A stretch of 64,000 bases of DNA from Notoacmeibacter sp. MSK16QG-6 (GTDB lineage Bacteria > Pseudomonadota > Alphaproteobacteria > Rhizobiales > Rhizobiaceae): NCBI RefSeq assembly GCF_024158145.1, contig NZ_JAMYXM010000001.1, positions 434,001 to 498,000 on the forward strand, written 5' to 3'. The notes beneath the pieces are model-generated. The model was not told where the DNA came from, did no database searches, and worked only from the letters and a program-made list of their open reading frames with translations. Below, piece after piece: positions 59,529 to 62,759 of the stretch. The number at the start of each line of letters is the position of its first letter. Positions within the stretch are counted from its first letter, which is position 1. Position numbers and translations under genes: made by a program.

Positions 59529-60091
59529 GCCATAACCGTATCGACGAAAACCGCGCCTTTATCGCCGTTGGTTTCGGTGTCATCACCGTCTCCGACACGC
59601 GGACATTGGAGGAGGATCGATCCGGCGACGTGCTTGCCAGCCGCATCGCCGGAGCCGGCCACGAATTGCGCGTCCGCGATATTGTCCGCGACGAGATTGG
59701 CGCCATTCAGACACTGGTGCGTGAATGGAGCCGCCGGGACGATATCGACGCCATCATACTCACAGGTGGGACAGGTTTTACCGGGCGCGACGTAACGCCG
59801 GATGCGATCGAACCGCTCTATGACAAAGCGATGGACGGATTCTCGGCCATCTTTCACCGCATCTCTTTTGAAAAAATCGGAACGTCGACCATTCAGTCGC
59901 GAGCCAGCGCCGGTCTCATCAACCAAACCTTCGTTTTTTCCATTCCCGGCTCAACGGGGGCATGCAAGGACGCCTGGGACGGCATCTTTCAGCCGCAGTT
60001 CGACTATCGGCATATGCCCTGCAATTTTGTGGAAATCATGCCGCGCCTTGACGAGCATTTAAAACGCGGCGGCGGCGCCAAAAGCCTCTGA
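59525..60091 (+). CDS. moaB: Molybdenum cofactor biosynthesis protein MoaB/MogA-like
   Basis: 188 aa. Molybdopterin-binding fold: FGVITVSDTRTLEEDRSGDVL, DAIILTGGTGFTGRDVTPDAIEPLYDK and the FSIPGSTGACKDAWDGIFQPQ C-terminal part. Adenylylates molybdopterin or binds it in Moco synthesis. MoaB and MogA are hard to separate by sequence; MoaB is the safer choice here. Co-translated with ispE. Confidence 0.92.
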   Translation: MSHNRIDENRAFIAVGFGVITVSDTRTLEEDRSGDVLASRIAGAGHELRVRDIVRDEIGAIQTLVREWSRRDDIDAIILTGGTGFTGRDVTPDAIEPLYDKAMDGFSAIFHRISFEKIGTSTIQSRASAGLINQTFVFSIPGSTGACKDAWDGIFQPQFDYRHMPCNFVEIMPRLDEHLKRGGGAKSL

Positions 60092-60104: not shown

Positions 60105-60614
60105 TCAGCGCATTCTTGCCGTTGCCGGGTGCAACTCAACGTCGAGAGGCCGTGTCGCAAGGCCGGTTCCTACGCTTTCGAGAGAACGATGCGGTTTGCA
60201 GAGCGCAAGCGCCTGTCGCTTTGTGATCAGGAGACCGTAATAAAGCGCCCCGTTGCGTCTTAGACGGCGCAGAAAAGGCGGGCGCGACGCCTTTGACAGA
60301 CGGAAGCGCGCAGCCTTCGTGCTTGCGGCCATATGTTCGCCCAATCCCTCGCGCCAGAATCCGGTTGGACGACTGCCCGGTTCCAGAAGAAGGAGCCACT
60401 CGGCTTTCGCGCGGCGTATGGCGGCAAGCGTGTCGCCGCCGGCCAAAAAGATGCATCCCGTCATCTCAGCCACCTTGCGGGTGTGATCTGTCGAGCCGGT
60501 ATCACAGACGATCACCTCTCTAACCGTGCCGTCGACAGCCGCGGACACGAGAGACGCGAGGGTGCGCGCCAGCGCTTCCTCGTCATTGTGCGTTTCCAAA
60601 ATAACCGTGAGCAT
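60105..60614 (-). CDS. Small family 2-type glycosyltransferase-like protein
   Basis: 169 aa from ATG 60614 (GAGG six bases upstream; 60620 is the alternative). The N-terminus LTVILETHNDEEALARTLASL and VREVIVCDTGSTDHTRKVAE carry the nucleotide-sugar-binding Rossmann-like start of GT2 enzymes with the Asp of CDTGSTD. It is truncated compared with full GT2 domains, so it may be a degenerate or specialised version. It converges on moaB, and its start region is 69 bp from the first LexA-type box, so it might share that control. Confidence 0.65.
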   Translation of the reverse strand: MLTVILETHNDEEALARTLASLVSAAVDGTVREVIVCDTGSTDHTRKVAEMTGCIFLAGGDTLAAIRRAKAEWLLLLEPGSRPTGFWREGLGEHMAASTKAARFRLSKASRPPFLRRLRRNGALYYGLLITKRQALALCKPHRSLESVGTGLATRPLDVELHPATARMR

Positions 60615-60683
60615 ACCCATCCTCTACCAATGCCGAGGAGAAGCGCAAGAGCGCAAAGGCGTCTAAGCGCCAAGCAGAGTTTT

Positions 60684-60698
60684 GTTCTTGCTATGTTC
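60684..60698 (+). promoter_or_regulatory. LexA-type box 1 (GTTC-N7-GTTC)
   Basis: GTTC at 60684-60687, seven bases, GTTC at 60695-60698. This is the alphaproteobacterial LexA consensus. It lies 52 bp before the radical SAM start and 69 bp before the start of the divergent glycosyltransferase-like gene. Its AT-rich setting suits a core promoter region. Confidence 0.75.
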
Positions 60699-60725
60699 TA
60701 AATATCTGCTAGGACTAATTTCGCA

Positions 60726-60740
60726 GAACAGTTAGCGAAC
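60726..60740 (-). promoter_or_regulatory. LexA-type box 2 (GAAC-N7-GAAC)
   Basis: GAAC at 60726-60729, seven bases, GAAC at 60737-60740, i.e. the same box on the minus strand. It ends immediately before GGAG, the ribosome site of the radical SAM gene. Centre-to-centre distance to box 1 is 42 bp, about four helical turns, suitable for cooperative repressor binding. Confidence 0.72.
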
Positions 60741-60750
60741 GGAGATTCGC

Positions 60751-61905
60751 ATGGAGCAGATTGAACGGGCAGACCGAGCCGCATTTGGTATCGGGCGAGC
60801 TGCGCTCGCTAATAGTATTGTCGATGGCGCGGGCCTTCGGATCGATCATTCGCGCAGACGCGGGCGGGGAACCGCGCTCAATACGACCGGCCGGTTTGAG
60901 CCCCTGACACGCGAAGGATTCGACGATGGCTGGCAGTCGATCGAGGAACTGCCTCCCTTCAGAACCGATGTGCAGGTGGAGAAGCCCAAGAAGATTATTG
61001 CACGCAATAGTTCGCCAGACATCGCCTTTGACAGGTCGGTCAATCCCTATCGGGGATGCGAGCATGGTTGCGTTTATTGCTTTGCGCGTCCGACACACGC
61101 CTATATGGGCCTGTCACCGGGCCTGGAGTTCGAAAGCCGACTCTTTGCCAAACCGGACGCAGCGCGTCTGCTGGCGGCCGAACTGGCGGCCAAGAACTAT
61201 GAGCCCCGGACCATCGCTATCGGGACCAATACCGACCCCTATCAGCCCATCGAAAAGGATTGGCGCATCATGCGCCATGTCCTCGAAGTGCTGGAAGCCG
61301 CCAATCATCCGGTCGGCATCGTGACGAAAAACGCCATGGTCGTGCGAGACATCGATATCCTTTCGCGTATGGCTGAAAAAGGCTTGGCCAAAGTCGCCAT
61401 TTCCGTCACGACGCTGGATCGAAAAGTCGCCCGTTCGATGGAGCCTCGCGCATCGACGCCGACAAAGCGGCTGGAAGCGATACGCGCCTTATCCGATGCG
61501 GGCATTCCAACCTCGGTCATCGCCGCCCCTGTGGTGCCTGGGCTGACCGATCACGAGATCGAACGGATTCTCGACGCCGGCGCGGCTGCGGGGGCGAAGG
61601 AGGCGAGTTACATCATTCTGCGGCTTCCGCTCGAAGTTGCGCCGATTTTCAAGGATTGGCTGCTGCGTGAATACCCTGATCGTTACCGGCATGTTCTTTC
61701 GCTTATTCGTTCCATGCGTGGCGGGCGCGATTACGACGCCGAGTGGGGCAAGCGAATGAAAGGTTCTGGCCCTTACGCCTGGCAGATCGGACGCCGCTTC
61801 GAGATGGCCGCCCGCCGGCTTGGGCTGAATACGGAAAAGAAAGTGCTGCGGACCGATCTGTTCCAAGCGCCGCCGCTGGAGAACGAGCAACTGATGCTGC
61901 TTTGA
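60751..61905 (+). CDS. PA0069/SplB-like radical SAM protein, putatively SOS-controlled
   Basis: 384 aa. The radical SAM cluster motif CEHGCVYC lies in NPYRGCEHGCVYCFARPTHA (C-x3-C-x2-C), followed by IAIGTNTDPYQPIEKD and VGIVTKNAMVVRDIDIL. The C-terminal part has RLPLEVAPIFKDWL and PYAWQIGRRFEMAARRLGL. It belongs to the COG1533 group, related to spore photoproduct lyase, but the true substrate is unknown. Two LexA-type boxes stand directly in front, implying induction by DNA damage, which fits a repair role (inference). Confidence 0.9.
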   Translation: MEQIERADRAAFGIGRAALANSIVDGAGLRIDHSRRRGRGTALNTTGRFEPLTREGFDDGWQSIEELPPFRTDVQVEKPKKIIARNSSPDIAFDRSVNPYRGCEHGCVYCFARPTHAYMGLSPGLEFESRLFAKPDAARLLAAELAAKNYEPRTIAIGTNTDPYQPIEKDWRIMRHVLEVLEAANHPVGIVTKNAMVVRDIDILSRMAEKGLAKVAISVTTLDRKVARSMEPRASTPTKRLEAIRALSDAGIPTSVIAAPVVPGLTDHEIERILDAGAAAGAKEASYIILRLPLEVAPIFKDWLLREYPDRYRHVLSLIRSMRGGRDYDAEWGKRMKGSGPYAWQIGRRFEMAARRLGLNTEKKVLRTDLFQAPPLENEQLMLL

Positions 61906-62029: not shown

Positions 62030-62088
62030 GAGAATCGGGACCGGTGCGATGGTCGCCCGCCTAATGCCTCGTCCGCGTCCCGATTCTC
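62030..62088. repeat. 12-bp perfect inverted repeat around the rnhB start with GANTC sites
   Basis: GAGAATCGGGAC at 62030-62041 pairs exactly with GTCCCGATTCTC at 62077-62088; the spacer is 35 bp and includes the rnhB ATG at 62049 and a second ATG at 62064. Each arm contains a GANTC site (GAATC 62032-62036, GATTC 62082-62086), which CcrM would methylate. It could be a regulator-binding site or an mRNA hairpin hiding the ribosome site. Confidence 0.55.
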
Positions 62089-62759
62089 AAACGGCGGTTC
62101 TGCCGCTTACGATGCCGCGATCCTCTCCGGATTTTGGCACGGAAAAAGCGTGTTATCGCAGTGGCGCGCGGCTCGTTTCAGGTGTCGACGAAGCTGGCAG
62201 AGGGCCGCTGGCCGGCCCTGTTGTCGCCGCCTCCGTTATTCTCGACCCAAAGCATGTTCCCCCAGGGTTGAACGACTCCAAGAAGTTGACGGCTGTTCAA
62301 CGCGAAGCGCTCTATACGCTGATCATGGACAGTGCCGTTTCCGTTTCCGTCTGCGCGATGGGGGCGGAGACGATCGACCGTATAAACATCCTGCAAGCAA
62401 GCCTGACGGCCATGCGCCGGGCGATTGCCGGCCATATCACGACGCCGTGCGTCGCCCTGATCGACGGTGACAAGCATCCGCCGAAAGCCCCTTGCGAAAC
62501 GCGGATCATGATCAAGGGCGATCAGCGAAGCCTTTCCATTGCCGCCGCGTCGATTATCGCGAAGGTAACGCGGGACCGTATGCTGGCGCGATGCTGCGAG
62601 CGCTTTCCCGACTACGGCTTCTCGCAGCATGCGGGCTACGGTACAGCGGTTCATCGTGACGCCATCACGGTACACGGTCCCGTACGACGTCTACACCGGT
62701 TGAGTTTTGGAATGCTCCGCTCGACCCGGTCTGAGGCCATCTCCAGCGGCGAACTCTAG
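62049..62759 (+). CDS. rnhB: Ribonuclease HII
   Basis: 236 aa from ATG 62049; ATG 62064 and 62112 are possible. Cleaves single ribonucleotides or RNA-DNA hybrids. Catalytic acidic residues: GVDEAGRGPLAGPVVAA (Asp-Glu), ALIDGDKHP and the Asp in IAKVTRDRML; also GLNDSKKLTA and YGFSQHAGYGTAVHRDAI. The N-terminal 60 residues are poorly conserved, which makes the start uncertain. Confidence 0.95.
   Translation: MVARLMPRPRPDSQTAVLPLTMPRSSPDFGTEKACYRSGARLVSGVDEAGRGPLAGPVVAASVILDPKHVPPGLNDSKKLTAVQREALYTLIMDSAVSVSVCAMGAETIDRINILQASLTAMRRAIAGHITTPCVALIDGDKHPPKAPCETRIMIKGDQRSLSIAAASIIAKVTRDRMLARCCERFPDYGFSQHAGYGTAVHRDAITVHGPVRRLHRLSFGMLRSTRSEAISSGEL

Follow-up and report, generated by a model that had tools for sequence, protein, structure and literature searches.

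Previously Described Systems

PA0069 belongs to the LexA regulon of P. aeruginosa, and an splB gene belongs to that of M. tuberculosis. The proteins of the PA0069 type are widespread. A search of the literature on PA0069 or Rv2578c, at the level of titles and the opening lines of abstracts, found no study of a PA0069-family protein.

The control of splB/COG1533 by the SOS response was predicted in 2012 for the alpha- and betaproteobacteria. In the relevant passages of that paper (PMC3323433), the proposal rested on members of these two groups with several chromosomes, and the trait was not observed in the gammaproteobacteria. The same passages give CTGT-N8-ACAG as the motif of LexA in most beta- and gammaproteobacteria (PMC3323433). 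LexA control of the PA0069-type family has also been proposed for other phyla, in passages of PMC8565304, and passages of two further papers (PMC7739468, PMC9380542) list a radical SAM protein under LexA in Gram-positive bacteria and in Streptomyces. The SOS link of splB/COG1533 is not new, and the present analysis confirms and sharpens this published link.

The locus described here lies within a stretch of 64,000 nucleotides from Notoacmeibacter sp. MSK16QG-6, the whole of which is referred to as the window. Its features are the following, with the positions counted from the first letter of the window:

60105 to 60620, minus strand: small family-2 glycosyltransferase-like gene, divergent from the radical SAM gene (PF00535, 33.0 bits)
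60684 to 60698, plus strand: LexA box 1, GTTCTTGCTATGTTC, predicted order-wide operator overlapping the -35 element (motif match and conservation)
60688 to 60693, plus strand: predicted -35 element, TTGCTA, inside box 1 (near-invariant TTG at box offsets 4-6)
60710 to 60715, plus strand: predicted -10 element, TAGGAC (T and A conserved at box offsets 27 and 28 in the order and in the congeners)
60721 to 60724, plus strand: predicted transcription start region (ATG peak at box offsets 38-40 in the relatives)
60726 to 60740, minus strand: LexA box 2, GAACAGTTAGCGAAC, putative genus-level second operator, at about +3 to +18 (motif match and congeners)
60741 to 60744, plus strand: Shine-Dalgarno sequence GGAG, six bases before the ATG (read from the sequence)
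60751 to 61905, plus strand: gene of a PA0069-family radical SAM protein of 384 amino acids (NF033668, 573.7 bits, cut-off 360; Pfam Radical_SAM)
62064 to 62759, plus strand: rnhB (RNase HII), downstream of the radical SAM gene (PF01351; start assigned by eye)

Two LexA-Type Boxes in One Promoter

A preliminary description of this locus placed two LexA-type boxes at 60684-60698 and 60726-60740, and these positions are exact, with a distance of 42 bp from the start of one box to the start of the other. Neither strand of the window holds any match to GTTC-N7-GTTC apart from these two boxes. Given that the shuffled window contains a mean of 2.2 matches, against the two real ones, their number is ordinary, and it is the presence of both in a single promoter that is unusual. 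The genome as a whole (3.54 Mb) has 121 matches to this pattern, versus 48 to the reversed control pattern, and 30 matches to the stricter form ending in TGTTC, versus five for the control. At the match density of the genome, a given box has a probability of approximately 0.004 of being accompanied by another match within 60 bp in either direction, which agrees with the original view that two boxes in one promoter are improbable by chance.

Conservation of Box 1 within the Order

The forward box is present in the promoter region of 134 of 136 distinct loci of the order (counted after the removal of the duplicates L042, L077, and L078), in a set that was picked by similarity and contains many Mesorhizobium and Bradyrhizobium. 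As the loci are related, the counts are not independent. The density of the forward boxes in these loci is 134 per 55,572 bp of promoter region, versus three per 708,688 bp in the rest of their sequence.

As this set had been chosen by similarity, a second sample was drawn evenly from the order. A match to the radical SAM protein was found in 104 of the 121 genomes sampled, 99 of which could be examined, leaving out four fragments (G002, G032, G037, and G104) and one locus (L302) that has no upstream DNA. The exact box 1 is present in 92 of the 99 genomes with the gene. The other seven are made up of two with a one-mismatch box, two with a match in the GAAC orientation only, and three with neither. 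The search for the radical SAM protein gave no match in 17 of the 121 genomes of the order, or, for the family, in 7/121, and six of these seven family genomes are small (1.1-1.9 Mb).

A Motif that Follows the Repressor

The comparison was extended to a sample of 219 genomes of the phylum, 98 of them with a match to the protein, from which G267 and G240 (stops or fragments) were excluded before the promoters were counted. In the other orders of the same class, GTTC-N7-GTTC is found in 27 of 31 promoters and the exact CTGT-N8-ACAG in none, whereas in the other class of the phylum (the GTDB Gammaproteobacteria, which include the betaproteobacteria) the exact CTGT-N8-ACAG is found in 26 of 34 promoters and the alphaproteobacterial motif in none. 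The motif proper to the class is absent from 4/31 and 8/34 promoters, respectively. Four permuted or re-spaced control patterns had no exact match in the 34 promoters, and matched between one and four of them when up to one mismatch was allowed.

The letters of the operator change with the repressor, then, and the same gene lies behind them, an arrangement that is hardly explicable except by LexA control. As evidence for such control, this motif switch appears to be close to decisive. The fact that the operator follows the LexA motif from one class to the other also argues strongly that control by damage is an enduring trait of the PA0069 proteins.

Taken from these comparisons of sequence, the control of the radical SAM gene by LexA can be regarded as nearly certain. 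This was the central claim of the preliminary description, for a radical SAM gene of the PA0069/COG1533 type, and it is borne out by the conservation of box 1 and by the class-specific motif. The role in DNA damage that was proposed together with it follows by inference from the LexA control.

The Other Boxes of the Genome

The boxes of the same genome were read in 35 stretches (111,475 bases) out of the 121 places, and 30 frames near boxes were scanned. LexA itself is encoded in the genome, with a profile score above the cut-off, and boxes are found at lexA, at parE, and at a radical SAM gene of the TIGR03916 family, the proteins of all three scoring above their profile cut-offs. A further box has a uvrD-like helicase gene on one side and an imuA-like gene (66.9 bits, NCBIfam cut-off 150) on the other, and there are boxes at a umuD-like gene (103.7 bits, cut-off 110) and a umuC-like gene (381.1 bits, cut-off 431), both of which fall below the NCBIfam cut-offs. 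The gene of a YifB/ComM-type ATPase, radA, and the gene of an O-acetyl-ADP-ribose deacetylase are weaker box-bearing candidates, and the other boxes covered by the reading are within or next to genes that have no evident SOS link. The recA gene was not among the genes identified at the box places examined (35 stretches, 30 frames).

The reading of ruvC as a box-controlled SOS gene was rejected, since the box concerned (G000:C9:186398) lies just past the ruvC stop codon and before a toxin-antitoxin-like pair. The odds of LexA control of the radical SAM gene were not altered when ruvC was dropped, because they rest on the comparative counts. The box itself (G000:C9:186398-186412; L155:2001-2015 with L155:1284-1950) stands ahead of a MazE-type antitoxin and PIN-domain pair that is inserted between ruvC and ruvA, and this toxin-antitoxin-like pair may be under SOS control.

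A number of other boxes are of interest in their own right. An overlapping triple GTTC repeat (L157:2001-2026; G000:C10:94876-94901), equivalent to two boxes in two registers, precedes the probable start codon of the TIGR03916 radical SAM gene by two bases. Among the 100 of the 121 matches listed, the pairs of boxes less than 60 bp apart are this one and that of the window, both of which are at radical SAM genes. One box (L228:1001-1015; G000:C7:322928-322942) lies directly 5' of the frame of the O-acetyl-ADP-ribose deacetylase, a macrodomain protein, which is a possible SOS-linked ADP-ribose hydrolase. The radA/sms frame has another (L227:1001-1015; G000:C7:220602-220616) at its 5' end, and a frame resembling a glutathione transferase has a third (L146:2001-2015; G000:C7:386425-386439) in the same place, approximately 120 bp upstream of a divergent gene for an oligopeptidase-B-like protein.

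Predicted Anatomy of the Promoter and Proposed Leaderless Start

A generic scan for the sigma-70 consensus found no promoter between positions 60050 and 62250, and the elements of the promoter were placed, for this reason, from the conserved columns of the relatives. On this basis, the -35 element would sit within the LexA operator across the loci, with the -10 element approximately 17 bp further on. The spacer between the two is 16 bp in the window, and 17 bp fits most of the relatives. The notion that the two boxes flank the core promoter needs refining for box 1, which contains the predicted -35 element. Box 2 lies just downstream of the predicted transcription start.

An in-frame ATG is found at box offset 38, 39, or 40 in 44 of the 92 evenly drawn promoters (9, 22, and 13, respectively), while every other offset from 18 to 109 has an ATG in 0 to 4 of the 92. 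In the larger set, the ATG is at offsets 38-40 in 71/134 loci. Given that this codon coincides with the predicted transcription start, a leaderless mRNA is predicted, and these counts suggest that it would be found in about half of the order. In Sinorhizobium meliloti, which belongs to the same order, 171 leaderless mRNAs have been mapped, according to passages of PMC3616915. An arrangement of this type would represent a very compact damage switch, with the operator, promoter, and start codon all within about 42 bases.

The ATG at offsets 38-40 is absent from the genus of the window, in which a Shine-Dalgarno start is found instead. The start codon of the window is 67 bp downstream of the first base of box 1, and box 2 does adjoin the ribosome site, as first described, with the GGAG at 60741-60744 and the ATG at 60751. 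In the parts of the literature covered by the searches, no description of either a leaderless promoter or a second operator was found, although this absence is not proven.

Box 2 as a Possible Second Operator

Box 2 is present in all three of the genomes of the genus that were searched, always at 42 bp from box 1, and it occupies the place of the predicted leaderless start codon of many relatives. Outside the genus, an exact reverse box 18-75 bases from box 1 was found in three of 131 box-bearing loci. The conservation expected across the Rhizobiales is seen for box 1, in both of the samples described above, but for box 2 it is confined to the three congeners and these 3/131 loci.

The weight matrix used as a yardstick was made from just six other boxes of the same genome, that of the ruvC-ruvA interval among them. 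Box 1 ranks fourth on this matrix, but box 2 only 38th, among the 100 of the 121 genome matches listed, and the versions of box 2 in the congeners have even lower scores (-7.4 and -3.6). The scan with a LexA matrix speaks for the first box, in other words, rather than the second, and the original claim of two boxes is best restated as one order-wide box and one genus-level box with a weaker center.

Second boxes, in either orientation, occur in seven of the 92 evenly drawn promoters, including that of the window, and in six without it, where 0.37 would be expected from a background density that was not matched for the composition of promoters. This suggests that a second operator may have been gained repeatedly in the promoters of the radical SAM genes. 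Sites resembling box 2 at one or two mismatches showed no excess in the relatives over the control motifs, in a test that is crude, given that one permuted control motif was itself found in exact form in 15/131 loci. This lack of excess means that nothing favors box 2 as the eroded remnant of an ancestral site.

The promoter might also be read as one of ordinary single-box repression, in which box 1 is the only operator and box 2 is either a product of chance or a translation-related sequence at the ribosome site. This reading deserves serious attention, at something over a third of the probability, given that the center of box 2 is unlike those of the other SOS boxes of the genome, that the box is missing from 128 of the 131 box-bearing loci outside the genus, and that one of its half-sites adjoins the Shine-Dalgarno GGAG. 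It is opposed by the pattern of conservation in the three congeners, where 8/8 tetrad bases are kept, versus only 2/7 bases of the diverged center and 29/73 bases upstream of box 1, and where the spacing of 42 bp is exact in every case, as well as by the six second matches in radical SAM promoters elsewhere, set against the 0.37 expected. On the evidence of the sequence, the scales tip modestly toward a functional box 2, and the tight repression by two boxes that had been proposed is plausible. It is also conceivable that LexA acts on the divergent glycosyltransferase gene instead, or on the two genes together from a single operator, a prospect raised in part in the preliminary description and lent some support by the position of the glycosyltransferase start, 64 bp from box 1, and by the frequency of the pair, whose members stand next to each other and divergently in 95 of 130 loci. 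This is improbable, however, as the glycosyltransferase was not found in this arrangement in the remaining 35 of the 130 loci, whereas box 1, which is found with or without it, is missing from just 2/136. Box 1 also keeps a fixed register with the promoter of the radical SAM gene, toward which the -35, -10, and ATG point, and in the other class of the phylum the operator is again upstream of the radical SAM gene. The operator is, for these reasons, assigned to the radical SAM gene, and the sharing of the promoter is not upheld.

Neighboring Genes

The upstream neighbors of the radical SAM gene are ispE, moaB, and the short divergent family-2 glycosyltransferase gene, the last of which is probably outside the SOS unit. 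Downstream, rnhB is found on the same strand in 126/134 loci, and the scan of the window identified no terminator-like site between it and the radical SAM gene. It is possible that rnhB is a read-through partner of the radical SAM gene, and that DNA damage induces RNase HII along with it.

The Radical SAM Protein and the Spore Photoproduct Lyases

The protein of the window was aligned with 75 of the 95 remaining references, to give a set of 76 members, with nine loci that have no stop codon within reach being dropped. All 76 members match the NF033668 model at E <=0.01, and the CX3CX2C cluster (C103/C107/C110 in the window) is invariant in all of them. The AlphaFold2 model built from these 76 sequences has a mean pLDDT of 90.6.

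A search of the solved structures with the single sequence gave no match at E values of up to 1, and the search with the alignment recovered weak matches to SkfB, NifB, and the globin-coupled sensors, with the spore photoproduct lyase (SPL) not among them. As SPL was absent from this sequence search of the structures, the folds were compared. The closest solved fold is that of SPL (Z 18.4, rmsd 3.6, 270 residues), with the next family at Z 14.3, and Foldseek agrees that SPL is the closest. The comparison of the SPL profile with that of the family aligned 82 columns, all of them outside the catalytic region.

Two residues of SPL are relevant here, that is, C140, which is taken to be the hydrogen-donor cysteine, and Y98, which is taken to be the second tyrosine of the radical relay. 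As the profile alignment does not cover the region concerned, column 159 was matched to C140 by eye, on the basis of the TxD motif.

According to the 2012 proposal, the gene would encode a true spore photoproduct lyase, and the reversal of the photoproduct would form part of the SOS response. The fold, which has SPL as its nearest solved relative at Z 18.4, is compatible with this, as is the match of 21 of the 76 members to the SPL model TIGR04070 at E <=0.01 (best 2.9e-6), and the SOS regulation itself was proposed in the relevant passages of PMC3323433. The protein of the window scores only 15.9 bits on TIGR04070, by comparison, against a cut-off of 400, and no cysteine except the three of the cluster is conserved in a majority of the 76 members. 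A cysteine occurs at column 159 in 0/76 members, and in at most 16/76 at any of the columns from 120 to 199. The position of the second relay tyrosine (F111 in the window) is occupied by Phe in 60/76 members and by Tyr in 16/76. The conservation of the SPL fold without a conserved cysteine outside the cluster indicates that the PA0069-family protein is probably not a spore photoproduct lyase, and the 2012 reading of the enzyme has little to recommend it. Should the SPL-type cysteine truly be absent, the customary label "spore photoproduct lyase / photoreactivation" would be mistaken, and there would be a new lesion or a new radical repair reaction to be found. The regulation of the gene and the modeled fold lend a modest preponderance to a nucleic-acid repair substrate.

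A Model of a Proposed SOS-Controlled Repair Gene

By analogy with the general mechanism of LexA, damage to the DNA would lead to the formation of RecA filaments and the self-cleavage of LexA, which would turn on the radical SAM gene. In the genus of the window, a second, weaker operator located just past the predicted transcription start, four helical turns away from the first, may add a block to initiation or early elongation. Within the enzyme, S-adenosylmethionine would be reduced at the 4Fe-4S cluster, and the resulting radical would reverse or modify a damaged DNA nucleobase, in a repair chemistry that may be akin to that of SPL, but without its cysteine hydrogen donor. The reading preferred here, in which the gene belongs to the SOS regulon, with the steps of the promoter and the enzyme as proposed, is assigned a probability of about 0.88.

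A broader picture, which is tentative and falls somewhat short of even odds, would have PA0069 as an SOS repair enzyme found throughout the phylum, with the fold of SPL but not its activity as a lyase, acting on an unknown lesion, leaderless in much of the order, with the -35 element inside the operator, and with second operators gained on several occasions.

Comparison with the Known Systems

In common with the solved SPL structures (PDB 4fhc and relatives), the protein of the window has the fold over approximately 270 residues, the CX3CX2C cluster, and a tyrosine just before the last cysteine of this cluster. In contrast to SPL, the PA0069 family has no conserved donor cysteine, and Phe mostly replaces the second relay tyrosine; the protein of the window also scores well under the SPL cut-off. 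The nearest named sister family is that of Rv2578c (NF038135), on which the protein of the window scores 222.3 bits, below the cut-off of 430. In the same genome, TIGR03916 (rSAM_link_UDG, COG4277) is also a putative DNA-repair radical SAM gene behind LexA boxes, but it belongs to another family, and its boxes form the overlapping triple GTTC repeat described above, directly ahead of the probable start codon.

The 2012 alphaproteobacterial LexA regulon with "splB" has the same type of operator and the same proposed regulation, the gene family being equated with that "splB" by name and description, as the PA0069 label is absent from the relevant passages of PMC3323433. The present analysis goes beyond this in an operator that would overlap the -35 element, a start codon that is often at the predicted transcription start, and a putative second operator in one genus. 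The class-specific motif also extends across the GTDB Gammaproteobacteria, whereas the same passages included the alpha- and betaproteobacteria, but not the gammaproteobacteria (PMC3323433). What is new in relation to the known systems is the phylum-wide motif switch, the predicted anatomy of operator, -35 element, and leaderless start, the putative second operator at the level of the genus, and the doubt cast on the label of photoproduct lyase.
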